Program-made: the position numbers and the translations under genes | The notes under the pieces: model-generated | Databases searched by the model: none | The model's input: only the letters and a program-made list of their open reading frames with translations | Told to the model about the DNA's origin: nothing | In this document: positions 675 through 28,591 of the stretch, in pieces | Numbering within the stretch: the first letter of the stretch is position 1 | Layout: each line of letters opens with the position of its first letter | Assembly (NCBI GenBank): GCA_903642325.1 | Contig: CAHJWM010000054.1 | Coordinates: forward strand, 1-32,619 | Source: Myxococcales bacterium | Lineage (GTDB): Bacteria > Myxococcota_A > Polyangia > Polyangiales > Polyangiaceae | Reading direction: 5' to 3' | Length of the DNA stretch: 32,619 bases

Positions 675-3600
675 CTACGGCGCAGTCGGACCCACCGACG
701 CGCTCGGCTTACCCGTCAGATCGGTGGGTGGGAAGTCATGGGCTGCCACGCGTGAGGCTTGCGTCAGGATATCGGGATTGGGGGAGATATCCGCTTCGTA
801 GCCGCTCAACGAGCCGTGGCAGCCGGCGCACAGTCCGTTGAAGAGCGGTCTCGGGAAGCCTTGGCGTACGATCTCGCCTGGGTAAAACTGCATTTCTTCT
901 CGTTGAAAATGGTCTGTCACGGCCGCGTCCGCGGCGAGCTGCACGCGTGTCTGGAGCACGAGCGGCATGCCCCCGCGGATGGTCACGCTGGCTGAGCCAT
1001 CATCGTAGAGAGTGGGCGAGCCGAGCAGCGCGCGACGAACGTACACTTTGCCGTAATCGTCGGTGAACACAGAGCCGGCGCTGGCAGAAGCGAAGCCGAT
1101 GACACCGGTCTCCGGCGGTAAGTCCTCCCAGAAGGACAAGGAGAAGCCAGCATTCGGGGGCACGGTGCGGCCGGTGCGCGTGTTTTGGAAGACCAAGCTC
1201 GACAGCAGCGGCGCGTCCAAGATCGTGATTTGGGCCCGCTGGGCGTGCTCGGCGTCGTCGAACACTTGCGTCGCGCCGTTGGGCTCGTCCAGACGCGACG
1301 CGAATTGGCGCAAATTGTAGCGCGGGGCGAGCGCGACTGGCCAGAGCTCGTCGTTCGGGCCGCTGACCAGTGGGGTCCGCGCACCGGTATTAGTGTCGAC
1401 CTCTACGATATCGAAGTTGCCCTGAAACTCCGCGAGAGACACCACGTTGGCGGCATAGCTTGCGAGCAAATTCTGAGTCGGTAGAGGCGACGGGCTACGA
1501 TAGGCACCTTGCGTACCGGCGAGCTTGCCGGTGGCCGCGGGGTCGAGCAGGCGCAGCGAATGCTGAAAAAAGCTGGGGTTCGGCCAGCTGATGGCGGCGG
1601 GATTCTGCGCGTAATCCGCGGCCGTGGTGCTCAGTTGGTCGACGCCGACACTGCGATTGATGATGGCCAAGGTGCCGGCGCCGTGGGCCGCGCCCTGGTC
1701 ACTCAAGATGGCCGCGAAGTTTTTGTCCGCGAGCTCGACCACGTCCGTCAATTGATCGAAGCCAATCGTGTCGCGCTGACCGAACAAGGGATGATAGTCC
1801 CCACCGTCCAAGTTCATGCGCCGACCGGCGAGCTGATAAAACCCAGGTGCGCGCTTTTCGGTTACGAAAATGAGCCGACCGTCGCGCATGAAGGCCGGTG
1901 ACAACTCTTGATTGAGCAGGAACGTGAGCTGACGCACCGCACCTCGCTGCAGCACGTATAAGTTTGCGTTGAGTCGCGACGGATCGGCGGGCGTGCGCTG
2001 CGGCCCGTGGTACGCGAAAGCTCCTGCGTTCTTGGTGTTGCCGCGGGTAGACGCGAATACGATGCTGCCATCCGGGGCAAAGGCAGGATCGAAGTTGTGC
2101 ACGAGCTCACCGTTGTCGGTGAAGGCGCCGTCATCGGGGCTCGGTTGGGCGTCGATCGTGGGCTCGACCGCGCACTTGCCGTTTTCGAGCACGTACACGC
2201 GAAATGCCGTCTTGGCCGAGGAGCGGGCGGAAAACGCAATTTTCGCCGCATCCCAGGAAACGGCGGGCCGGCGCGCGTCCGTGCTCGCTACGGGCAGGTT
2301 GCACACAGCAGACAAGCTTGCTTCGTCACCAACGGTCACGTGGCCCGTCGCGTCGAGCGAGGCCGCAATCTGCATGACCTCCGCGCCCGGCGCGTAAGTT
2401 TCGAAGCTCTGTGGTGTATCCGGCAACGGCGCTGGCGGACGGCGTACGAAGACGAGGCCGGTCAAGGTCGGTGGCGTCGGAAAGCGCGCGGCTCGTTCCT
2501 TCTGAAACCAGGCCTTGATCACACAATAGGGAGCCTGATCGTCGAGCTCCGCGCTGCTGTCGGCGGCGGCGGCCAGCTCCTTTTCCGTACATTCGTGCTG
2601 CTCGGTGAAGAGGGGCCCGCCGCGGTGCAGTAACCCGCCGTACTCCGCGACTGGCGGAAGGTTTTTCCGAACCAGGCGGCTGGCATTCAAGTCGTCTGAC
2701 TCGAGCGCCAATTGCTCCAGTGTAAAAGCGTAGTTCTTGCGTGTGGCCGGTAGCCCGAAGTGGCCGCCGCTGCCGCCGCGTAGCCGGTAGTCGTGAAACA
2801 TCGTGCCCGAGTGGCAGTTGAGCATCATACAGCCGCGTTTGACGAGCATCGGTTGCACCCGGTTGGCGAAGAACAACAAGCCATCGTCTTTGCCCGGCAC
2901 GGCTCGATCGGTGGGGCCGCCCTTCTCGGTCGCCCAGGCTACGAGCGACTTGTAGTCTGCGTCGTTCGTGGAACCGAAGACTGTACCCCCCTCGTGATAC
3001 ACCCCGCCCACGGATGGAGAGAGCGCTCGCCGCAAAATTTCACTCGTGCCCGTGTCGACCGAAACGTAATCTCTAATCGCAAAGTAGTTCCAGCGTGTGG
3101 CCTCTGGAGTGGTACCGCAGGTGAGATAGAGGGAATTGGCGGCGGACCCGTGACAGTTTCCCGCAGCGCAGCGTTTGCCGATGACGGGGTTCACGGTGGC
3201 CGTGAAAGTTTTGAAGTCGGGAGCCGTCGAATCCGCGTTCGGCTCGAATTCAGGGTCGGTGCCGAGCACGTTCGAGCACGGAGTTTGCTCGAGCACGGGA
3301 TCGGCTAAAGGCGCGTTATTGACGGCAAAACCGTTGGAGATCCAAGTGTCCAACAAAGTAAATGAGGGGCTCGTCAGATCGAGCAGCTGGCCGCCGACGT
3401 GCGCAATGTCGGTCGTGATCAGCGTGGGTTTGGCGCTCTGCCAAGTCGTGATCGCGATCGGATAGGGCTTGGCGACTTTGAGTAGCAGGGCCGGCAGCCC
3501 GTAGGGGCCATAGCGCAAGAGCAGATCCTTGCGCTTGGTCAATGATTCGTAGCTCGTCACGTTCAGATTTCCGAGCGCATTGCCGCGGTCGTCTGCGGCC

Positions 3601-3797
3601 ACATGGCAGCCAGACTTGGTAGGGCTCTGGGCACACGATTGCTGGAGCACGACGCCTATCTTGCGCTCGTAGTAAGTACTCCGGGCCGAGTCTTCGTCAC
3701 GCCTGCAGGCGCCGCTGGTGATCGCCAAACCGAGAGCCAGCGCCCCAATCGAGCCTGCTTGGCCGATCTGGAACATGGCTTTGCGCGCGCGGATCAC
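675..3797 (-). CDS. PD40 beta-propeller lipoprotein with haem-c-like motifs, hydrazine synthase alpha-like
   Basis: Large secreted lipoprotein of ~1040 residues. The GTG at 3797 gives an n-region MIRARKAMF, a hydrophobic stretch and a weak lipobox (ITSGAC); the frame continues to a TTG at 3818 and an ATG lies at 3776. The N-terminal third has three Cys-His clusters resembling cytochrome c attachment sites: C-x8-CH at 3603-3635, CAAGNCH at 3150-3170 and CMMLNCH at 2811-2831 (both CX4CH). The middle has PD40/WD40-like blades (VSWDAAKIAFSA, FAPDGSIVFASTRG, FMRDGRLIFVTEKR). The tail has a canonical CXXCH (CAGCH, 816-830). The order propeller then haem site, and the motif YRSPSPLP, match the protein at 4857-7217 and recall the hydrazine synthase alpha family. 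It is the last gene of a three-gene operon. No substrate can be named; a surface redox or oxidoreductase-like role is inference. Confidence 0.75.
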   Translation of the reverse strand: MIRARKAMFQIGQAGSIGALALGLAITSGACRRDEDSARSTYYERKIGVVLQQSCAQSPTKSGCHVAADDRGNALGNLNVTSYESLTKRKDLLLRYGPYGLPALLLKVAKPYPIAITTWQSAKPTLITTDIAHVGGQLLDLTSPSFTLLDTWISNGFAVNNAPLADPVLEQTPCSNVLGTDPEFEPNADSTAPDFKTFTATVNPVIGKRCAAGNCHGSAANSLYLTCGTTPEATRWNYFAIRDYVSVDTGTSEILRRALSPSVGGVYHEGGTVFGSTNDADYKSLVAWATEKGGPTDRAVPGKDDGLLFFANRVQPMLVKRGCMMLNCHSGTMFHDYRLRGGSGGHFGLPATRKNYAFTLEQLALESDDLNASRLVRKNLPPVAEYGGLLHRGGPLFTEQHECTEKELAAAADSSAELDDQAPYCVIKAWFQKERAARFPTPPTLTGLVFVRRPPAPLPDTPQSFETYAPGAEVMQIAASLDATGHVTVGDEASLSAVCNLPVASTDARRPAVSWDAAKIAFSARSSAKTAFRVYVLENGKCAVEPTIDAQPSPDDGAFTDNGELVHNFDPAFAPDGSIVFASTRGNTKNAGAFAYHGPQRTPADPSRLNANLYVLQRGAVRQLTFLLNQELSPAFMRDGRLIFVTEKRAPGFYQLAGRRMNLDGGDYHPLFGQRDTIGFDQLTDVVELADKNFAAILSDQGAAHGAGTLAIINRSVGVDQLSTTAADYAQNPAAISWPNPSFFQHSLRLLDPAATGKLAGTQGAYRSPSPLPTQNLLASYAANVVSLAEFQGNFDIVEVDTNTGARTPLVSGPNDELWPVALAPRYNLRQFASRLDEPNGATQVFDDAEHAQRAQITILDAPLLSSLVFQNTRTGRTVPPNAGFSLSFWEDLPPETGVIGFASASAGSVFTDDYGKVYVRRALLGSPTLYDDGSASVTIRGGMPLVLQTRVQLAADAAVTDHFQREEMQFYPGEIVRQGFPRPLFNGLCAGCHGSLSGYEADISPNPDILTQASRVAAHDFPPTDLTGKPSASVGPTAP

Positions 3798-3906
3798 GAC
3801 TTCAACTTTAAGCCACAACGCGCTCCGCGCAAAAACTATCGGCGTCGGCGCGCCGGCTTCCCGAGCGAGCTCTGCCGTGTCTTCGACGCGCTTGCGCTTC
3901 GCAAGC

Positions 3907-4845
3907 TCAGAGCCGAATCAGAGCCACTGTTGCCGCGTCCCTCACCCCCGAATCGACGTCGGTTTGCGCAGCCAGGGCGGCTTCGCGCGCCGCTGGGTCA
4001 CCAATCTGCCCGAGGGCCCACACCGCCGCGGAACGTACGCCCGCATCGGGCTCGGTGTCGGCAGAGGTGAGAGCCATCAAACCCATGACGGAATCCGCGC
4101 TCCGAAGCGCGCCCAAGGTTTGGGCCGCGCGCCGCCGCACCAGAGGCGAGGCGTCACTGATCATGCCGACTACCGCATCCACGTTGCTGAACACGTTGAT
4201 CTGGGTCACGCCGCTGAGCGCGGCCAACCGCACTTCCTCGTCACCGTCCGTCAGCGCGCTTGCGAGCTCGGCATTCGGCCCCTGGTCGTTCAGGCGAACG
4301 AGGGCATTGGCGGCGGCTAGACGCACCATCGGGGAACGGTCTTTTACTAGCGCCGTAGCTACCGGAGCGATGCCGGCTCCCTCCAAGAACTCGCCCAGGG
4401 CGCTGGCCGCATACGCGCGCGTGAGCTCCGACTTCGACTGATCGCTGACTGCGTCGACCGTCTGCTCGTATGCCTCGCCCTTGCCGAAGACACCGAAGAT
4501 GCGCCGCCGGAGCCACCACGCGCTGATCTCGCGCGTCTTCGGGCTAGACGCATAGAGCAGCTTCGAGACGTACGGAATGCAGCTCAGACACTCCACCCGC
4601 TCGCCGTGCTCGAGCATGGCCCAGATTGCCGTCGGCGCGGAGCTGTCGGGGGCCTCGACCAAGGCCAAGATCGAATCCGGGGTACTCACGGCCTCGAGCG
4701 AGCTCGTGCTCAAGTTTCGATACACGCTCGAGCGACCAGGGTGCGTGAGGTCGGGGGCGTCCGCGGCGCTCGACACCGACACCAACGCCGTCGCCGCCAA
4801 GCCGAGGGAGACGCTCGAAAAGCGACGAATTTTATCGGTCATCAT
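3907..4845 (-). CDS. secreted HEAT-repeat protein
   Basis: About 312 residues from the ATG at 4845; the frame also has a TTG at 4854 and a second ATG at 4842. A GAGG lies upstream at usual spacing, overlapping the end of the preceding gene. A Sec signal peptide (hydrophobic SVSLGLAATALVSVSSA) is followed by an N-terminal domain with IWAMLEHGERVECLSCIPYV, then at least four HEAT/PBS-lyase-like helical repeats (for example MVRLAAANALVRL, EVRLAALSGV, LVRRRAAQTLGAL, GVRSAAVWALGQIGD). HEAT arrays are protein-binding scaffolds. Its position, starting within 12 nt of the end of the haem-protein gene upstream and followed by a second one, suggests a structural or assembly partner of these lipoproteins. 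The CLSC pair lacks the histidine of a haem-c site. Confidence 0.8.
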   Translation of the reverse strand: MMTDKIRRFSSVSLGLAATALVSVSSAADAPDLTHPGRSSVYRNLSTSSLEAVSTPDSILALVEAPDSSAPTAIWAMLEHGERVECLSCIPYVSKLLYASSPKTREISAWWLRRRIFGVFGKGEAYEQTVDAVSDQSKSELTRAYAASALGEFLEGAGIAPVATALVKDRSPMVRLAAANALVRLNDQGPNAELASALTDGDEEVRLAALSGVTQINVFSNVDAVVGMISDASPLVRRRAAQTLGALRSADSVMGLMALTSADTEPDAGVRSAAVWALGQIGDPAAREAALAAQTDVDSGVRDAATVALIRL

Positions 4846-4856
4846 CTTCTTCAACC

Positions 4857-7217
4857 TCAGTAGTTGTTGCCGGTGCCCGCGACCGGATCGGCGTCGACGA
4901 ACGCTTTGAAGTCCGAGTTCTGGCGGGCGTAATACTGACCTCCCAAGTCGATGCTGCGGATGAGCTTCACCAGCTCGTCCCGCGTGAGCCCGGCGAGCTT
5001 CGCGTGGTCGGTGCGCGTCGCACCGGCCACGTCGGCGTTGCTGAAGGCTTTACCGAGCGGCCAAGCGTAGGTCTTGCCGTCCAGTGCAGAAGTCACGTTC
5101 AGCTTCTCGATCAACAAGCTGTTCCGCGCATCGCTCGGGATAGCCCATTTGGGCGGCACGGTGCCAGAGGTGACCTTGGAGCCTTTCGCCATGTTCATCG
5201 CCATCACCGCCGGATAGAAGAGCGAGACGTACGAGGCGGGCCAGGTGGCAATGCGCTTGTCGTAGTACACGGTGATCGGCGTATCGCTCAGATCCATGCG
5301 AGCGATCTTGTAATTGGTGGTCGTGCTCGAGACCGCGTCGCTCATCGTCACGGTGTAAAATTGCTGAGCCTTGTCGCCGTTCGTCGTGCCGTTGTGGCAG
5401 GAGACGCACTTGGCGGTGAGCAGCGCCTGGATCTGGTTCGGGTTGTCCGCGTTCGTGGCATTCGCCCAGGGGTACTCCGTACGCTTGTCGATGGGCAGCA
5501 TGAAATTTTCCGCGTGTCGCCCGGCCGCGATGGTCGCCTGTCCGGTGCCGGCATTCGGCAAATTCGCCTTATTACGATCCTCGTGGCATCCGCCGCAGAC
5601 ACGGCTCTCACCCGGCATGCCTTGGATCCAGGTCGTCTGACTGCGTATCGAGAGATCGAACTCGTCGATCGGTTGCAGATGGATGGGCACGTACGGCGGC
5701 AGATCGGCGAGCCAAGAGCCGTCCGCTTCGATCTTGGCTTCGCCCAGAATCGCAGCGCCTTCCGCCATGGTCAGACCGAACATGGTGTGATTGGGCGAGC
5801 CCTCGGTGGAAAACCCTTCGATGATGCGCACGCGAGTGGCTTTGAGCAGCGCTTGATCGGTCGGCGTACTGGTCGTGAACTCGGCCCCGGATACGGCGTC
5901 CCCATGCCGCAACGCGAGCGACGTCTCGTGTATGTTCTCGGAGCCGAAGCGCGTGGGCAGCGAGGCATCGGACGAAGTCTGCCGCGACGGGATGATCGGC
6001 GGCTCTGAGCGCGAGCTTATCGCGTGCGCATAAAGCTCCCAGCTGCCCTCGTGGTTGATCACTAGGTCATTGACGCGGTTGGCCGCGTCGTAGAGGTACA
6101 GCCCGTAGTCTGGCGGGGTGAGACTGAGCTCGTTCGACTGGTTCACTGCGCCGTCCGCCCATGACACGAGCACGCGGCCATCCGGCAAGCTGGTCGGCGA
6201 ACGATAGCGCCCCACCGGTGACGGCTCGTCCCCGCGCGGCACGGAGGGCGTCAGCACGGTGTAGGCTTCTTCCTCGCTCTTCTCTTCGTCGAACTGTCCG
6301 ACATTTTCCGGATTCGCCGAGCGCGCGTCGAGCTTCACCAGAGCCCCCGCTTGAATCGTGTTTTCTCGGTTCGTGACGATTCCGTAAAACACATTGTCGG
6401 TGGGACTCTCGCTGACTTGCACCATCGAGTTCCCGGGTTTGCCGTGCTGACCGCTGAGCGCGACGATTTGCGTGCAGTCCGGGTTCATCGCGAAGAGCTT
6501 CACGTCGTTCACGTTCTCCAAGTGCTCCCAGCGGGAGAAGCCGACGCGGCCGTCATGCATCGAAAATAGCGTCACGACGTGGGAGAGATTTTGAGAGCAG
6601 AGCTTGCGATCCGCATCGCCCCCCGTAAGCGTAATGGTCGCCAGCTGCGTGACGGCGCGCGCGTGATTGTATTCGTCCGCGCGCGTGCCCATGGCCGTGT
6701 AGGCTTGATTAGTGGTAAAGACGATGCGACCGCCGGGCGAGAAGATCGCGTTTTGATCGTCATAGGGCCCAAAGGTGAGCTTGGTGACGGCAAACTTGCC
6801 ATCCGCGCCGCGGTCAACGCCTGCCCAATACACGTGGTAAGTGTCGTGCGCGTCTGCTTTCATCGTGAACACGACCTTGGTGCCATCGAAGCTCGTATCC
6901 ACGCTCGACACGTCCGCGGTTGGATAGTCTTCGATGAGGTTGGCCTGAACCTCACGCGACTTCAGATCGTATATCTCGAGCCGCCCGCCGGGCTCGTAGC
7001 GCCCGTAATCCATGACTTGGCCCATGCCGCCCGCCACGTCGATGCTGACCGTGCCATCCGCTGCGACCGCTGTGTGCTGGCGGACCGCGTACACGATCCT
7101 CGACACGTTCCCGTTTTCGGTATCCGAAGCGGTGCTCGAACAGGCGCTGAGCAGCGCCGCCGAGGCGAGCAATGCCCACGAGCCCGAGTGGCAAGGGTCG
7201 AACAGCGGATGAGGCAT
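4857..7217 (-). CDS. hydrazine synthase alpha-like lipoprotein with two CXXCH haem-c motifs
   Basis: 786 residues from an ATG preceded by AGGA at 9-nt spacing. The N-terminus has a clear lipobox (ALLSAC), so the mature protein is a surface lipoprotein. A beta-propeller of PD40-like blades fills roughly residues 40-480 (FDGTKVVFTMKAD, FSPGGRIVFTTNQ, HDGRVGFSRWE). Near residue 340 is YRSPTSLPDGRVLVSWADG, a motif shared with the protein at 675-3797, followed by a WELYA segment. Two canonical haem-c sites follow: CGGCH (residues 541-545) and CVSCH (604-608). Propeller plus C-terminal c-type haems is the architecture of the hydrazine synthase alpha subunit and its wider family. No beta/gamma partner genes are nearby, so hydrazine synthesis itself is unlikely; another redox chemistry is inferred. 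First gene of the operon. Confidence 0.8.
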   Translation of the reverse strand: MPHPLFDPCHSGSWALLASAALLSACSSTASDTENGNVSRIVYAVRQHTAVAADGTVSIDVAGGMGQVMDYGRYEPGGRLEIYDLKSREVQANLIEDYPTADVSSVDTSFDGTKVVFTMKADAHDTYHVYWAGVDRGADGKFAVTKLTFGPYDDQNAIFSPGGRIVFTTNQAYTAMGTRADEYNHARAVTQLATITLTGGDADRKLCSQNLSHVVTLFSMHDGRVGFSRWEHLENVNDVKLFAMNPDCTQIVALSGQHGKPGNSMVQVSESPTDNVFYGIVTNRENTIQAGALVKLDARSANPENVGQFDEEKSEEEAYTVLTPSVPRGDEPSPVGRYRSPTSLPDGRVLVSWADGAVNQSNELSLTPPDYGLYLYDAANRVNDLVINHEGSWELYAHAISSRSEPPIIPSRQTSSDASLPTRFGSENIHETSLALRHGDAVSGAEFTTSTPTDQALLKATRVRIIEGFSTEGSPNHTMFGLTMAEGAAILGEAKIEADGSWLADLPPYVPIHLQPIDEFDLSIRSQTTWIQGMPGESRVCGGCHEDRNKANLPNAGTGQATIAAGRHAENFMLPIDKRTEYPWANATNADNPNQIQALLTAKCVSCHNGTTNGDKAQQFYTVTMSDAVSSTTTNYKIARMDLSDTPITVYYDKRIATWPASYVSLFYPAVMAMNMAKGSKVTSGTVPPKWAIPSDARNSLLIEKLNVTSALDGKTYAWPLGKAFSNADVAGATRTDHAKLAGLTRDELVKLIRSIDLGGQYYARQNSDFKAFVDADPVAGTGNNY

Positions 7218-21149: not shown

Positions 21150-21660
21150 CCAGCTCGAGGTTTGGAACGGCCAGCGCTTGCCTTCGGCATTCTGCCGCTT
21201 CATCGAGTACTCGCTGCTGAAAATCGCTATCCACGATGCGCTTTGCGATTTTCTCGAGTGCCCTGGCTTGCGCTTGGCCGGTAAAATCGGTGTGCACGCG
21301 CCTTGCCCCGGCAGCAGGGCGACGCCGACACGAACTAGGACAATGAGGGCTGGGGGGCCGGACTCCAACACGGCCGAAAGCGATCAGACATTCCATACCA
21401 GTGCGTGCGCCCTTGCGCGTGCGCCTTCTGGCTGACCGTGCTTCGCGGCGTGCGCCGGCGGGCACCACGCGCGTTCGGAGGTGCGCGGCGGGGTCGCGTT
21501 CGCCCCCAACGAGCGCGCTAGAGCACGCGCTCTAAGAAAATTTGAATTTTGCTGCGGCCCTGGGGAGGCCGAGGTAGGGAGCGAAATGTAGCCTCTGGAG
21601 CGGCTGACCGGGCGAGTGTCTGGCCGTGCGTCGCTATGGGGCAAGTCGGGGACACACCGA
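21150..21660. promoter_or_regulatory. 511-bp non-coding leader region of the RHS gene with overlapping hairpins
   Basis: No convincing gene is seen. At 21511-21534 two mutually exclusive hairpins share a right arm: GAGCGCG (21511-21517) with CGCGCTC (21526-21532), and TAGAGC (21519-21524) with GCTCTA (21529-21534). They are followed by the AT-rich AAGAAAATTTGAATTTT, the best promoter-like or terminator-like stretch in the gap. A further small hairpin CGGCC/GGCCG around CTGGGGA lies near 21555-21571. Confidence 0.4.
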
Positions 21661-24600
21661 ATGAAGCTTTGCGTGCTGAGGTTGTTCGTACTCGGAGTTT
21701 CCGTGTGGGCCCTCCCGCTGGGCTGCTCCAGTGGGCCGAACGCCCCCATGAGCGACGCGGGCAGCGCCGAGGCTGGCGCGCCGGGCGTAACTCCCGGGGG
21801 TGATGCCGGCGCGCCGGGCGTAACTCCGGGGGGGGATGCCGGCGCGCCGGGTGATGCCGGGGTGAGCGGCACGTGCACGAACGCAACCGTCGACGACGGC
21901 AACCCATGCACCATGGATTGGTGTGATCCTTCGAGCGGGCCCGTGCACATGCCGCTAGCAGCGGGCACCGCCTGCGCGGACGAAAACGTGTGCAATGGCG
22001 CCGAAAGCTGCAATGCCGAGGGCGCGTGCGCGGCCGGCACGCCGCTCGTCGTCGACGATGGCGACGTGTGCACCACCGATACGTGCGACGTAAAGCAGGG
22101 CGTCAGCCACGCGGCGCAGCCTGGTTGCGATCGGCTGCCAAATCTGGGCGGGGGACGCTACGAAACTCGCGCCTCGCTCCTCGGCATCGTGCATTCGGCG
22201 GACGGGGCCGCGGTTTCCGGCTACGCGGTGAGCGTGCTCGAAGTGCCGGTGAGTGGAGCCGCGCGCAGCGATTTAACCGTGGTCGCCGCGAGCGATGGCT
22301 CATTTCGGGCGCGTTTGACTGGCTTTCCGGAAGTGGTGCCAGCGCACACGCCGCCTCTGCATGCGCTCGTTCGCATCACCGCAGAGGGCTTCCTGCGGGT
22401 GGAGCGTGAGGTTTACTTGCGGCCGGGTGATGCGAAAAACCTGGGCACATTGGTCATGATCCCGAGCGACTCAGCACTGACCATGATCGGGCCCGAAGGC
22501 GGCAGTGCCTCGGATTCGCGCAACTTGGTGACGGTCGAAATCCCGCCCGGGGCTCTGCCGAGCTCGATTCCGATTCGCATCACGCCGGTCCAAGCGCGGG
22601 AGCAATTCCCCTTCCCCCTGCCCGACACCACCGCGACGATGTACGGCGTGGTGCTCGAGCCGGATGACGCTAAAGGTCATATCGTGCGGGTGGCCGATGC
22701 CACGCAAGCCGGACCGACCGGTCGACAGACCACGTTCACCTGGAACGGAGACGGTCAACCGAACACGATCACTAGCCATCAGGTGCTGACCGCGTTCAGC
22801 TACGACGCTGCGACCGGAAACGTCAGCGCCAGCAGCGATATTACGGGCACGAACGGCTGGACGTACGACGCTGCAGGCAATGTCGCCAGCCGCAGCGACG
22901 CAACTACGTCGCTGACGTACACGCACGACGCAGGAAATCGGCTCACCAAGATCGTCGACGCGTTGGGCAATGCGACGACGCTCGGTTATGGCCAAGGCGC
23001 ATGCGGCTGCCCGAACGGCGAGCTACTCACTTCACTGCACACGCCCGACCTGCCCACGGACGCGCAGTGGACTTACGCCTACAACGCGGATGGCTTGCTG
23101 CAGACCGCAACCGATCCGCAAAGTGCCACGCGGAGCTTCTCGTACAACGCGACACGCGACGTCGCGTCGACCAAAGACGCGCTCGGACACGAAACACGAT
23201 TCAGCTACGACCAACTGGGGCGTCAAAAGAGCATCACCGACCCGCTTGGTCGCTTGGGCGTGTTCGCTTACCCCGTGCCGATGAGTGGCGCCATGAATGG
23301 GCCTTCCGTGTACGCGGGGAGCCCGGACGGACAAGCCGCAACAACCGACTTGGATGCGACGCTGACGGACGGGCAATACCAAGTCGGCAAAAACTTCTAC
23401 CCTCTGGCGAGCTTCCCGGCGCGGGTCGAATTCTACCGCGATGCCACGTTCGCCTTCAGCCTGGGCCGAAATTACGACAGTAACCAACGCCTGGCCAACC
23501 GCGGCGACCGCGTGGGCTTGCCCTTTTCCGGATCGCAAATTCTGCCGACCACGACGACGGCATCGCAGTATCGGGAACAGCTTTTCTCCTACATCAACAA
23601 TTACGATTGGACATCTCTATTCCAAGATACCGAGTCAGATTACATTGGTCACTACGAGTACGAATTCAATAACTACAATGCCGACCTCGACGTTACCTCG
23701 GACACGGGTTGGACCGCCGTCACCGCCAATTACACATACACGCGCGACAACGCCGGCCGAGCCACCGCCGTAGCTACTACCTTCCAAGGGCTGGATGGCA
23801 CGACAACCGAATCGTTCCCCGGCCCCGCTGCGAGCTACAATTACGACCCAACCACCGGCCGGATCACTACGCTCACGAACGGCTCGGGCACGCAGGCCTT
23901 GGCGTACGACGCACGCGGTCTGCTCAAAACGCTTGCTCTCTCTTTCGATACCGGGCAACCCACGCCGCAAGCTGAAGGCACCTTTGCGCTCTCGTACGAC
24001 CCCGTTGGCCGCAACACGCGCCTCGATTACCCAGATGGGCACTTCCGCACGCAAAGCTACGATCGCGTGGGCCGGCTCCTGTCTCGCTGCTACGACGGCT
24101 ACCCCGCTCCCGCCGTGGCTCGTTGCTACACCGCGCAATACAACGCCGTAGGCAACCCGAGCGAGCTCACTGACCCAGAAGGCAAGAGCGAAATCTCGTA
24201 CGACGCGCTCGACCGCGTGACCCAAGTCTGGCGCACCCCCACCGGCGGCCCGCGCACGTTAGATGAGGAATACAGCTACAACGCGCTCGGCGCGCTGAGC
24301 AAGAACATCGCCACTTCCGTGGACGACAAGCGCCCACTTTTGAGCGGAGGCGGCACCGCCAGCGGCGGCATTCCCGCGACCCACAGCGGGCAAGCCGTGA
24401 CGCTCGACCCCGCCGGGCAAGTCACCGGCCTCGACGGCAGCACCCTCACCTTCAACAAACGCGCCTGGCTCACCGGACTGACGCAAGCCGCCACCACCGA
24501 GTCCTACAGCTACGACGCGCAGTCGCGCCGCGTGGTGCGCCTCTCGACCGGCACCACGGGCGAATATTACTCCTACGACGGCGCGAACCTAGTCGCGGTC

Positions 24601-25665
24601 ACCAACGGCCCCGGCCTCAACATCCCCCCCGCCGTCCGACGCCGCATCCTGTACGAAGGCGTGGATCAAGCTCTATGGATGTACGACGCCACGATTGGGT
24701 CGTCGGTGTACTTCGAAGTGGACACGTTGGGCAACGTACGCCGCCTGCGCGGTGGCAAACCGCTCTCCGGGCCAGCGCTCGCGAGCGACTTTGGCGGCTA
24801 TCGCTACACGGCCTTTGGGCACCTCAACACGACGGACACGACCACGCCGTACCCCACGGTTGCGGGTCAGCGCTATGAGCAGCCGCTGCGTTGGCAGAGC
24901 CACTGGTTCTTGGATGTGGGGCCCGGATTGTATGATTTCAAAGCGCGCGTTTGGTCGCCTGATTTGGCGACGTTTTTGCAACCGGATGAGTTTGGTTATC
25001 TAACGCGGACTGGCACGCTGTGGTCGTGGCCGGGGCAGAATCCGTATCGGTGGCGAGATCCGAGTGGGCGTGACGCGGAGGAGTGGTTTCTGCGCAATGC
25101 GGACAATTTGCAAGCGGGCGCAGAGGCGGTGTCTGGCGCCGCGCTGACGCTCGCGACGGGGGGACTTGCCGGGGAGTTACTGGGATTGGGCTCGCTCGAT
25201 GCGCTCGGCCTTGGCGCGGCGTCGGGGGCGGGGGCAATCGTGGTGGACTCTGGCGCGGCGGCGACTACCGCGGTCGTGGCTGAGGCGGCGGAAAACCAGT
25301 GTTCGGCCGCGGCGGACGGGGTTGAAGCCGCCGCCGCAGAGGGGGCAGAGGCTGGTGCTGGCGCGCTCGCGAAATCCGACCTGAACATTGGAGTCCATAC
25401 TGCTGAACGCATGGCTGAGCGCGGCGTAAATGAGTCGATGGTGAGGGTCGCGCTCGAGAAGGGAACTCCATTCATCGACCCGAAGAACGGAACGATCAAC
25501 TACGTGCTCCGTGAGGGATTTGCGAGCGGAAAGGACCTTCTGGTTGGTACGAACCCATTGACCGGGAAGATCACAACGGTAATTCGGGGAAGCGATCTAA
25601 TCGCGCCGAGATTTGTTCCGCTCATTTCGGGCGGACCTCAGGTAGTCATTCCGTGGGGGCCGTGA
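21661..25665 (+). CDS. RHS/YD-repeat lipoprotein with DUF4258-like C-terminal toxin domain
   Basis: 1334 residues from the ATG at 21661 (a GTG at 21616 is in frame). A signal peptide ends at LPLGCSS, a weak lipobox. Then come an 11-residue Ala-Gly-Pro repeat linker, two Cys-rich DDGNPCTMDWCD / DDGDVCTTDTCD motifs, a carboxypeptidase-regulatory-like beta domain (~180-265) and the start of a ZU5 domain (GPEGGSASD, VEIPPGALPSS). From ~345 YD/RHS repeats follow (FSYDAATGNV, TYDAAGNVAS, FSYDQLGRQKS), then the RHS core-associated motif GLYDFKARVWSPDLATFLQPDE and NPYRWRDPSGR (Asp near 1133). After DPSGR come an Ala/Gly-rich stretch and a ~95-residue tip with HTAERMAERGVNESMV and GKITTVIRG, the signature of DUF4258 (BECR-fold RNase-like toxins). 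The RHS cage would shelter the tip. The downstream gene overlaps its stop. Confidence 0.85.
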   Translation: MKLCVLRLFVLGVSVWALPLGCSSGPNAPMSDAGSAEAGAPGVTPGGDAGAPGVTPGGDAGAPGDAGVSGTCTNATVDDGNPCTMDWCDPSSGPVHMPLAAGTACADENVCNGAESCNAEGACAAGTPLVVDDGDVCTTDTCDVKQGVSHAAQPGCDRLPNLGGGRYETRASLLGIVHSADGAAVSGYAVSVLEVPVSGAARSDLTVVAASDGSFRARLTGFPEVVPAHTPPLHALVRITAEGFLRVEREVYLRPGDAKNLGTLVMIPSDSALTMIGPEGGSASDSRNLVTVEIPPGALPSSIPIRITPVQAREQFPFPLPDTTATMYGVVLEPDDAKGHIVRVADATQAGPTGRQTTFTWNGDGQPNTITSHQVLTAFSYDAATGNVSASSDITGTNGWTYDAAGNVASRSDATTSLTYTHDAGNRLTKIVDALGNATTLGYGQGACGCPNGELLTSLHTPDLPTDAQWTYAYNADGLLQTATDPQSATRSFSYNATRDVASTKDALGHETRFSYDQLGRQKSITDPLGRLGVFAYPVPMSGAMNGPSVYAGSPDGQAATTDLDATLTDGQYQVGKNFYPLASFPARVEFYRDATFAFSLGRNYDSNQRLANRGDRVGLPFSGSQILPTTTTASQYREQLFSYINNYDWTSLFQDTESDYIGHYEYEFNNYNADLDVTSDTGWTAVTANYTYTRDNAGRATAVATTFQGLDGTTTESFPGPAASYNYDPTTGRITTLTNGSGTQALAYDARGLLKTLALSFDTGQPTPQAEGTFALSYDPVGRNTRLDYPDGHFRTQSYDRVGRLLSRCYDGYPAPAVARCYTAQYNAVGNPSELTDPEGKSEISYDALDRVTQVWRTPTGGPRTLDEEYSYNALGALSKNIATSVDDKRPLLSGGGTASGGIPATHSGQAVTLDPAGQVTGLDGSTLTFNKRAWLTGLTQAATTESYSYDAQSRRVVRLSTGTTGEYYSYDGANLVAVTNGPGLNIPPAVRRRILYEGVDQALWMYDATIGSSVYFEVDTLGNVRRLRGGKPLSGPALASDFGGYRYTAFGHLNTTDTTTPYPTVAGQRYEQPLRWQSHWFLDVGPGLYDFKARVWSPDLATFLQPDEFGYLTRTGTLWSWPGQNPYRWRDPSGRDAEEWFLRNADNLQAGAEAVSGAALTLATGGLAGELLGLGSLDALGLGAASGAGAIVVDSGAAATTAVVAEAAENQCSAAADGVEAAAAEGAEAGAGALAKSDLNIGVHTAERMAERGVNESMVRVALEKGTPFIDPKNGTINYVLREGFASGKDLLVGTNPLTGKITTVIRGSDLIAPRFVPLISGGPQVVIPWGP
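21775..21858 (+). repeat. 33-bp in-frame tandem repeat in the RHS linker
   Basis: Two 33-bp units (21775-21807, 21808-21840) and a third shortened by 15 bp (21841-21858) encode AGAPGVTPGGD-type repeats. Units begin GGCGCGCCGGG and end GATGCC. The linker length is probably variable between strains by slippage. Confidence 0.8.
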
Positions 25666-26570: not shown

Positions 26571-27327
26571 TTAAGACGGGGTCGATCGGCGGGTGCGGTT
26601 GGGCCGCCCTTGATTGGCGGCTTCGAAGTGATCGTCATCGACCTTGCGGATTTCGTGCTCAAGCATGCCCTCCGAGAAGGTGCGACCACCGAGCTCGACG
26701 ACGCGGGGCGTTTCTTCTCGAACGAACGTGGCGCCGCAGGCGCGGAGCACGTCGTGGTCGGGCCAACCGAGCAGGTCATCTCCGCGGGCTTGCTGCTCGT
26801 CGGGCAGAGTGATGATGAACTCCGCACTCGCGTCGTCATCATCGTAGCCTTCTGCGTGAGCGTGGTGGAGCGCTGCTTGTCAGCGTATGTGCCACGATGA
26901 ACCAGTCTTCGTTGGCGTCTGGAGTGGTGCACCAATAAAGCTTTAGAGGGGCATAAGCAGCCCATTTCTGCTCGCTGTCCCACACGTAAAAGCCGGTGTC
27001 TTGAAGCGAGCCGTCCGGCGCCACGATGAGAATCTCGGATGTCGCATTGCGATCAAGATCGTCAGCGGGCTCATCAAGCTCGGAGAGCGATTTTAGCTCG
27101 AGTTGGTGCTCATCGGCGTCGAAGGTGACGTAGCCATCGTCTTCGGGGTCGTCACTCACGCTGAAGGAGAATTGTCTTTCGACGAGCAGCGCAGCCACAC
27201 CGGCGAGCAGCGCGTCGTGCGAAAGGAAGACACCGAGCACGAGCGGGGTGCAGTTGTCGATGTCGGTTTCGGTAACGACAAGCAGCTTTTCCGCTGGAAA
27301 TCCTGGTGGGCGAGCGATAGCGGGCAT
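26571..27327 (-). pseudogene. frameshifted gene of unknown function
   Basis: The ATG at 27327 starts a frame running to 26839 (MPAIARPPGFPAEKLLVVTE, to EDWFIVAHTL, then a basic nonsense tail SSAPPRSRRRLR). The protein-like sequence continues on the same strand in another frame: HAEGYDDDDASAEFIITLPD, GDDLLGWPDHDVLRACGA, REETPRVVELGGRTF, EGMLEHEIRKVDDDHFEAA, to a TAA at 26571. One extra base between about 26855 and 26890 explains both halves, which join to ~250 residues. The restored protein looks acidic and cytoplasmic; I do not know its family and see no HExxH motif. Its ATG shares one base with the XRE gene stop (TGATG), so it was the second gene of that operon. Confidence 0.65.
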
Positions 27328-27704
27328 CAGCCAGTCTTGCGTTTGAACTCTTCAACGATGGGGGCGAGGAACTCGACGATCCTGTCCTGCTGACGACGCG
27401 GGAGCTTGGAGACCTCATCGAAGAGCTTGCGGACTTTCCCGATTGGTCCACCGCCGCGAGGCGAGAGCGGCGATGCCGAAGCAGAAGGCGAGAGAAGCGC
27501 CTCGACAGTGACGCCGAGCACCTTGGCGAGCTTTGGCAGTACGTCGGAGCGCGGTGGTTTGTCGGTCTGCTCCCAGAAAGCGATGATCTGCTGCTTCTGG
27601 CCGACGAGGCGTCCGAGCTCGGTCTGAGTGAGGCCAGCACGCTGCCGGAGCGCAGCGAGGTGCGCACCTTGGGCGGGTCGAGACTTTCGAAGCTTTCGAG
27701 CCAT
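27327..27704 (-). CDS. XRE-family helix-turn-helix regulator
   Basis: 125 residues from the ATG at 27704. After a basic start (MARKLRKSRPAQG) comes an HTH_3 domain at ~15-70: LAALRQRAGLTQTELGRLVGQKQQIIAFWEQ, then LPKLAKVLGVTVEALL. A Ser/Ala-rich linker leads to a C-terminal helix KVRKLFDEVSKLPRRQQDRIVEFLAPIVEEFKRKTG, likely for dimerisation. It has the form of phage or toxin-antitoxin-type repressors. It is translationally coupled to the frameshifted gene. The same frame is open upstream through a truncated lipoprotein gene, so a fused product is possible if no separate start is used. Confidence 0.82.
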   Translation of the reverse strand: MARKLRKSRPAQGAHLAALRQRAGLTQTELGRLVGQKQQIIAFWEQTDKPPRSDVLPKLAKVLGVTVEALLSPSASASPLSPRGGGPIGKVRKLFDEVSKLPRRQQDRIVEFLAPIVEEFKRKTG

Positions 27705-27764
27705 AGCCCAAGGATAGGGGTGCATTTCCATGTGCCTGGGTTTTGGGGGAGCGCGAGCTTGCAC

Positions 27765-28292
27765 ATAGAACAAGAAGGCATTCTGGCTCGCTATCCAAGT
27801 CGGGCCTTCGTTGTAACCGTAGTTGTATGTGAAGGGCGCGGTGCAGATGTCCGTCGCCGGACCTTTGACCTGAGCCGGGAATGGACCGGGCGGACACGAC
27901 CATTGCTTCTTCGGGCCATTCGGGCCCCAGAACCCGACGGGACCGGAGCCAGCTGTCGCCGCTCCGTCGCCGGCCGTGCCACCTTGCGGCGTACCTGCGT
28001 ACCCTGCGCTACCGCCGCTGCCCGCGCGGCTGCCGCCGACGGCGGTGTCACCCGCGCTGCTCCCAGCACTGCCCGCGCCCGCAGGACTGCCGGCGCTAGC
28101 TTGTCCGCCACTACCAGCCGGGCCCGGCGCTTCACCGCCGATGCCTGCGGCTCCGGTGGTGCCCGAAGTTCCAGTGGGCGCCCCACCCGCAGAAAGACCG
28201 GGGGGCGACGATGTGGAGCCGCAGGCGAAAATTAGAGTGAGCGCGAGCGAGCCAACCACGGCAGGAGCTCGACTGGTTCTGTGCCTGGCCAT
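27765..28292 (-). pseudogene. truncated SMP-30/gluconolactonase-type lipoprotein gene (5' part only)
   Basis: The ATG at 28292 starts MARHRTSRAPAVVGSLALTL with a lipoprotein-type end IFACGSTSS, then ~90 residues of Gly/Ala/Ser/Thr-rich linker. The next part, WSCPPGPFPAQVKG, FTYNYGYNEGPTWIASQNAF, is the start of the SMP-30/LRE-like beta-propeller seen in many Polyangia lipoproteins. Homology stops near 27765-27774, after about one blade; the rest of the ~300-residue propeller is missing. The frame then runs without a stop through AYVQ-like filler into the XRE regulator. The gene is therefore broken by a deletion or by arrival of the XRE block. It could still make a short lipoprotein or a fusion. 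Confidence 0.65.
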
Positions 28293-28591
28293 GCCACGCG
28301 CATCTTGAAAGTTTGCAAAACACGGCGCAAGAACCGCTCTGCCCGGAGCGACCCGAACCTTGGCTGCTGATGCAACACGCTCGCCGGGCACGGGAGCGAC
28401 GAGGGCCGGCGCTTGCACTCCGACGGCTATGGCCCGATGCGGCCGTGCTTTGGCGACGCACGCACCCGCGCCGCACTCCGACCGTGACGCACCGCGCACG
28501 AGCACGACGATCCAAGCCGGCCTCTGCATCTCGCTGCCGTGCTATGCTGTTTTCATGACCAAGCGCACCGCTCGAGGAATGAGCGTTCTAG
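28293..28591. promoter_or_regulatory. intergenic region with leader mini-ORF and -10-like TATGCT
   Basis: The 299-bp gap lies between divergent genes. TATGCT (28543-28548) is a plausible -10. An ATG at 28555 opens a 15-codon frame (MTKRTARGMSVLVAE) whose stop at 28600-28602 overlaps the TTG start of the zinc-ribbon gene, so it may be a leader peptide or simply a chance frame. Confidence 0.35.

Follow-up and report, generated by a model that had tools for sequence, protein, structure and literature searches.

A conserved operon of two hydrazine synthase alpha-like haem lipoproteins and a HEAT-repeat protein in Polyangia

The window, by which we mean the whole stretch of 32,619 nucleotides analysed (contig CAHJWM010000054.1 of a Myxococcales bacterium of the class Polyangia), contains three consecutive reverse-strand genes that we call A, H and B. 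Genes A and B encode proteins resembling the alpha subunit of hydrazine synthase (HZS), and H encodes a HEAT-repeat protein. Conservation in A and B is given below over alignments of 39 A and 35 B sequences (35 of 36; the B of locus L089 was left out).

675-7217, minus strand: operon A-H-B, three open reading frames
4857..7217, minus strand: gene A, HZS-alpha-like lipoprotein of 786 aa (PF18582 match, structure model, structure match to 5c2v)
5583..5597, minus strand: CGGCH, residues 541-545 of A, counterpart of the haem alphaI motif, aligned to CSGCH of 5c2v
5580..5780, minus strand: HZS_alpha middle domain match in A
5394..5408, minus strand: CVSCH, residues 604-608 of A, counterpart of the haem alphaII motif; Cys, Cys and His invariant (39/39)
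5004..5006, minus strand: His738 of A, aligned with His772, the distal ligand of haem alphaII; invariant (39/39)
3907..4854, minus strand: gene H, exported HEAT-repeat protein of 315 aa (HEAT_2, 3.2e-29), between A and B in complete loci
4579..4590, minus strand: C89-x-x-C92 of H with no His behind it; kept in 38/38
675..3818, minus strand: gene B, HZS-alpha-like lipoprotein (profile, model and structure match to 5c2v)
3603..3635, minus strand: first N-terminal haem motif of B, C62-x8-C71-H72; both Cys in 35/35, His in 34/35
3399..3401, minus strand: His140 of B, candidate distal ligand of haem 1; His in 35/35, H-x-G-G in 23/35
3150..3170, minus strand: second haem motif of B, C217-x4-CH; 35/35
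2994..2996, minus strand: His275 of B, candidate distal ligand of haem 2; His in 35/35, H-x-G-G in 34/35
2811..2831, minus strand: third haem motif of B, C330-x4-CH; 35/35
2625..2627, minus strand: His398 of B, candidate distal ligand of haem 3; His in 35/35, H-x-G-G in 34/35
816..830, minus strand: C-terminal CAGCH, residues 997-1001 of B, counterpart of the haem alphaI motif; Cys, Cys and His in 35/35

Two bases separate A from H and 88 separate H from B. Gene B has two candidate starts, a TTG giving 1047 aa and an ATG at 3776 giving 1033 aa, the latter version being used for alignment and modelling. Lipobox-like starts are present in A (Cys26) and B (Cys38), and by eye the start of H is signal-peptide-like. 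An earlier note on this DNA had described two HZS-alpha-like lipoproteins in one operon, and the open reading frames, motifs, lipobox-like starts and 5c2v matches of both proteins bear this out; H also belongs to the unit. The same note spoke of a surface redox system. A redox system is still the best general reading, but the word surface draws only on the lipobox-like starts, and anchoring that faces the periplasm is equally possible. Promoter and terminator scans yielded nothing usable (2 promoter hits against a mean of 1.1 in shuffled sequence, 8 terminator hits against 6.3), and a search for the exact double-CxxCH DNA pattern, with 0 matches across the window's genome, was uninformative.

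Hydrazine synthase is the key enzyme of anammox. By its match to Pfam family PF18582 (E 1.2e-13; 51.8 bits, over the cut-off of 26.6), A is a member of the HZS_alpha superfamily. B itself has no PF18582 match in the Pfam scan, which detected one PD40 repeat above cut-off, and several relatives of B score 22.7-26.2 bits against PF18582, under the cut-off. In profile searches of the PDB, A retrieved only 5c2v, the HZS alpha subunit of Kuenenia stuttgartiensis, up to E 1 (1.5e-17), and 5c2v_A was the best chain for B (1.9e-8). The structure model of A (pLDDT 82.6) has 5c2v as its sole whole-length solved relative (Foldseek 3.0e-29, TM 0.62-0.64; VIA Z 32.7 over 581 aligned residues, rmsd 3.2, next entry Z 26.2), and 5c2v is likewise the best solved match of the B model (pLDDT 82.4; Foldseek 1.4e-19; VIA Z 32.1 over 471 aligned residues, rmsd 3.5, next entry Z 26.8). 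The predicted folds of A and B are thus nearer to HZS alpha than to any other solved fold; we did not count the absence of a fold from the VIA lists as evidence. Profile search and structure prediction, which the earlier note had named as a check, therefore favour its assignment, with A over the Pfam cut-off and both models matching the HZS-alpha fold. TolB propellers (2hqs, 3iax and others) share the propeller fold with A and B but, unlike them, have neither haem nor an HZS_alpha middle domain.

The predicted domain order of A, a propeller followed by a middle domain and a C-terminal cytochrome domain, is that of HZS alpha, and the Kuenenia protein (5c2v chain A; PF18582; NF052339) also has in common with A its two CxxCH motifs and the distal histidine ligand of haem alphaII. 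B shares the propeller, middle domain and alphaI-type motif; compared with HZS alpha, it has three extra haem modules at its N terminus and no C-terminal alphaII domain. Lipobox-like starts also set A and B apart from HZS alpha. The propeller with C-terminal haem motifs that the earlier note described thus applies to both proteins, but for B it omitted these three atypical motifs. A further difference concerns the assembly, HZS being an alpha-beta-gamma complex, whereas the operon combines two different alpha-like proteins with a HEAT protein. A quick tree built from 61 chosen rows places the A proteins of two clades described below in one group and the B proteins of both in another (SH-aLRT 100 each).

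Conservation of the haem motifs is strict. The CGGCH of A is invariant in 39/39 except for its two x residues, and the single exception among the motif Cys and His residues is one His-to-Gln substitution in the first motif of the 35 aligned B. Because these residues are otherwise invariant, the haem motifs of A and B are not chance occurrences. The spacing of the first B motif is 8 residues in 25/35 sequences and 6 in 10/35. Profile comparison clearly relates module 2 of B to module 3 (97.2%, 3e-11); the relationship of module 1 to module 2 is weaker (76.5% over 28 columns, mainly via the H-x-G-G end), and that of module 1 to module 3 is weak (28.5%). B is, by its motifs, a predicted tetrahaem protein, and A and B together carry six predicted haems.

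We found the operon to be widely retained within the window's order, where PF18582 occurs in 50/97 genomes (49 over cut-off). Sixty stretches around these matches and the window itself gave 61 loci, 44 of which contain gene A. The earlier note had made conservation of the three genes as a unit a check on its reading, and the complete set, on one strand and in the same order, is present in 35/44. Seven of the incomplete loci stop early at a contig end, and two lack B in readable DNA: in L051 H is shortened and the contig ends about 1.7 kb beyond it, and in L055 about 8.7 kb past H contain no B. Elsewhere in both genomes, on other contigs, a strong B is present (G077:C370 for L051; G020:C224 and C184 for L055). 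Seven of the 61 stretches contain a B-like gene without A. In two of these the contig edge falls within H, in one (L086) it truncates B, three encode a distant B-like type, and in L089 neither A nor H precedes B, though the same genome also has A-H-B.

A scan of named genomes, restricted to the best 79 of 531 confirmed relatives and partly repeating genomes of the order set, gave 33 loci with A in the core clade, of which 25 are complete and five end early, and no B was seen downstream of A-H in L096, L097 and L112. Within the same best 79 of 531, a divergent clade of Kofleriaceae, Nannocystineae and further myxobacterial metagenome-assembled genomes, with identity of about 31%, has a complete A-H-B in 17/20 loci, and the other three end early. 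The 44 order loci and 20 divergent loci thus include 12 exceptions, 10 at a contig edge and two without B downstream. Sixteen long B matches from the divergent clade carry Cx6-8CH, Cx4CH, Cx4CH and CxxCH, the open reading frame being cut ahead of the last motif in two. The C-x-x-C[IVLA] of H is present in 13/19 H proteins of this clade.

Across the class, whose members are myxobacteria of soil and sediment, a count made by hand with two candidates scored per genome found B at E 1e-3 in 145/289 genomes, 111 of them below 1e-100 (hereafter strong B). H was detected at E 1e-30 in 24/282 genomes of the phylum, with eight candidates scored per genome, and all 24 belong to the window's class. Identity distances over 29 loci are correlated between A and B (r 0.94), A and H (r 0.90) and H and B (r 0.92); these correlations, computed among the three operon genes alone, are consistent with co-inheritance. 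Carriers of the operon include complete or near-complete genomes, one of them a single contig of 10,327,335 bases (G071). Assembly contamination is unlikely, since related genomes show synteny in the flanking genes. No B homologue was found on plasmids at 1e-5. When neighbours were clustered in the 44 loci, no family beyond A, H, B and shadow open reading frames occurred in more than 17, so that no fourth operon gene emerged. A hisI/hisE fusion (17/44) and a receiver/coiled-coil protein (16) are the commonest neighbours, other local synteny being lower, and these loci yielded neither a dehydrogenase nor a cytochrome partner as a conserved neighbour. The order also encodes further HZS_alpha proteins of 1057-1277 aa that form a subfamily apart from A and B (L078:7904-11101, minus strand; L079:7633-10806, plus strand; L090:6647-10480, plus strand).

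Hydrazine synthesis itself is probably not the function. At haem alphaI of HZS, Tyr591 is a ligand and the CxxCH His binds zinc, while haem alphaII is bis-His ligated, as given in PMC12607021 and PMC12758564. By alignment, position numbers in these papers equal the 5c2v chain position plus 27, which places Tyr591 at the fourth residue past the motif His. At that place none of 39 A (T, S, A, N, V, G or K) and none of 35 B (S, N, A or T) has a tyrosine. The NCBIfam equivalog NF052339, with a cut-off of 800 bits, scores A at 52.8 and B at 16.4. On the missing Tyr591 and the score far under cut-off, we reject hydrazine synthase as the function. The haem alphaII feature (CxxCH with distal His772) is present in A as judged by alignment. 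Tyr591 being absent and His738 invariant, A looks like an HZS alpha whose first haem is ordinary and whose second is intact. According to PMC12758564, His772 is missing in clade I homologues, whereas the A of this operon keeps His738 there in 39/39. Beyond the lipobox and haem sites no Cys of A is invariant (C207 and C248 occur in 29/39); the zinc-site Cys303 of HZS is described in PMC12758564 as absent from some anammox bacteria too.

HZS_alpha proteins outside anammox bacteria are already known, PMC12758564 reporting 300-1,000 GTDB matches and more than 600 Foldseek matches. The subset of RefSeq that this 2025 survey analysed was chosen mainly by a neighbouring beta-gamma gene, and its alpha homologues are attributed to a few bacteria termed obligate anaerobes. 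Homologues beside a fused beta-gamma gene (clades I-IV of that survey; our planctomycete loci L145 and L151, with a beta-gamma-like gene directly upstream) share the HZS_alpha core, and those of L145 and L151 have, like A and B, a CxGCHE without Tyr at H+4. In our tree the HZS fragment joins these two (SH-aLRT 94) and not A or B, a provisional placement given its long branch and 33% filled row. Stand-alone HZS_alpha proteins (L146-L169; Planctomycetota, Lentisphaerota, Armatimonadota, Hydrogenedentota and others) have the same core as A and B and largely share the propeller's W-E-[HY] and the haem-site G-E-x-R-x-C-x-G-C-H-E; they are single, usually larger proteins, and none of their loci contains the full A-H-B set. 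By eye, none of 29 HZS_alpha open reading frames from other phyla has a tyrosine at the Tyr591 place. Fusions to the core in other phyla involve HEAT repeats (3/30 open reading frames), LamG (6/30) and F5/8C (3/30), and the fused HEAT frames lack the C-x-x-C of H. No neighbouring family recurs in more than 3/78 cases (78 of 126 listed proteins scanned).

Single planctomycete chains join an HZS_alpha core to HEAT repeats (L154:104-4120, L154:4084-7476 and L158:3724-7479, all plus strand), and a predicted single Lentisphaerota frame joins it to a ribose/galactose isomerase (LacAB_rpiB) domain (L155:5416-8784, plus strand). A Nitrospirota metagenome-assembled genome (L144:5953-13450, plus strand) encodes an A-like lipoprotein bearing three CxxCH motifs, followed by a small lipoprotein with Cx4CH and by proteins that by eye are barrel-like, thioredoxin-like and ApbE-like, a cluster resembling an electron-transfer set.

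The earlier note had found neither beta/gamma partners nor any other anammox-type gene. This holds for the operon and the window, and no beta/gamma gene recurs beside the operon, but it fails for the genome, which encodes a beta-gamma-fusion-like protein:

L173:877-3297, corresponding to about 95,606-98,023 of contig C18 of the window's genome (G000:C18), minus strand: 806 aa protein with PKD, YVTN-propeller and di-haem parts

In NCBIfam it scores best against the HZS beta-gamma fusion, at 1.3e-23 and with 83 bits where the cut-off is 1250, and HZS gamma (9.6e-18) ranks above solved cytochrome c peroxidases; alignment to HZS gamma places Phe at gammaCys165 and Arg at gammaHis144. The protein is one of four CCP_MauG matches in the genome. 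A search with family NF052342 hit 5/289 class genomes at 1e-20 and missed the C18 protein, so we used the C18 protein itself as query and found relatives at E 1e-40 in 61/289. Strong B occurs in 32 of these 61, with about 23 expected (Fisher p 0.017, uncorrected for kinship and genome size), and 79/111 strong-B genomes lack such a relative. The copper nitrite reductase NirK is over cut-off in 31/289 genomes, 20 of which have strong B (p 0.003, likewise uncorrected for kinship and genome size), and is absent at that cut-off from 91/111 strong-B genomes and from the window's genome. The beta-gamma-like protein is thus weakly associated with A-H-B, and both it and NirK are at most optional partners.

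We tentatively propose, at a little under even confidence, that A-H-B encodes a redox complex of the HZS-alpha superfamily, anchored by lipid and carrying c-type haem, in which an alphaI-type haem performs an oxidation, H is a scaffold and electrons leave via B. The complex is probably a new one that transfers electrons, not one that makes hydrazine. A, with two haems, and B, with four, would each place an alphaI-type haem beside a TolB-like propeller, giving two candidate reaction sites; the HZS tyrosine being missing, the CxxCH His is probably the proximal ligand there. The second haem of A and the three N-terminal modules of B would be bis-His electron-transfer haems forming a wire, and the HEAT scaffold H would join A and B. 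Substrate would be oxidised at the alphaI-type haem, and electrons would most likely pass along the haem chain of B to periplasmic cytochromes. The data show the predicted fold, the haem motifs, the lipobox-like starts, conservation of the operon and the lack of the HZS tyrosine; how the haems are ligated, whether a complex forms, which way electrons flow and what class the substrate belongs to are what we infer here. HEAT repeats fused to the HZS_alpha core in other phyla make an A-H contact plausible, and the LamG and F5/8C fusions hint, by analogy with distant relatives, at surface organic substrates; an extracellular or surface organic compound seems likelier than a nitrogen compound. Retention of the four-motif layout of B at about 31% identity, together with the co-conservation of A-H-B and its co-inheritance in the tree, speaks for the proposal. 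Against it stand the A-H loci without B in readable downstream DNA (L051, L055, L096, L097 and L112), the want of a conserved dehydrogenase or cytochrome neighbour and the weak kinship of modules 1 and 3.

Six predicted haems and lipid anchors would also suit an electron conduit between the cell and an acceptor or donor beyond it (a mineral, humics or a partner cell) with no small-molecule catalysis, for which the Nitrospirota cluster offers a parallel in its A-like and Cx4CH lipoproteins beside barrel-like, thioredoxin-like and ApbE-like proteins. We consider this unlikely: no barrel or other conserved partner accompanies A-H-B in the 44 loci, and the large conserved non-haem surface of propeller and middle domain exceeds what a wire needs. 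HZS-like chemistry on nitrogen compounds (hydroxylamine, NO or ammonium), with N-N or N-O bonds formed or cleaved and with partners such as the beta-gamma-like protein encoded elsewhere, would account for the HZS-alpha fold, both haem motifs, His738 at the His772 place and the enrichment, weak for the beta-gamma-like protein and also seen for NirK, in strong-B genomes. The missing tyrosine in all A and B read, the substitutions at gammaCys165 and gammaHis144 and the many strong-B genomes without either partner make it improbable. Similarly improbable, in our estimation, is an envelope scaffold or haem-based sensor, in which the TolB-like propellers would bind envelope proteins and the haems would be structural or sensory. 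TolB entries follow HZS alpha in both VIA lists, and a HEAT partner and lipobox-like starts would fit, yet the whole-length match is to HZS alpha and not TolB, and strict conservation of six haem motifs exceeds a scaffold's needs.

We found no description of an A-H-B operon in a full-text literature search, and the word Myxococcota is absent from the main text of PMC12758564; the operon, its spread within the class and the N-terminal modules of B therefore appear to be new. With strong B in 111/289 class genomes, A-H-B pairs two alpha-type proteins with a HEAT partner of its own and does without beta-gamma, and thus bears on the older function of the HZS alpha fold. A more speculative reading, which we regard as rather doubtful, is that the redox complex proposed here is a beta/gamma-independent catalyst present in the class since early on, and that its non-tyrosinate alphaI-type haem performs the older chemistry, hydrazine synthesis having been recruited from it later in anammox bacteria. 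An hzsA-type annotation outside anammox bacteria is in any case no evidence of anammox.

Elsewhere in the window, positions 21616-25665 (plus strand) encode a secreted RHS/YD-repeat-like protein of 1349 aa (by eye), and an open reading frame at 27327-28529 (minus strand), which may be chimeric or a broken gene, seems by eye to combine a lipoprotein-like N-terminal part with a C-terminal part that is helix-turn-helix-like.
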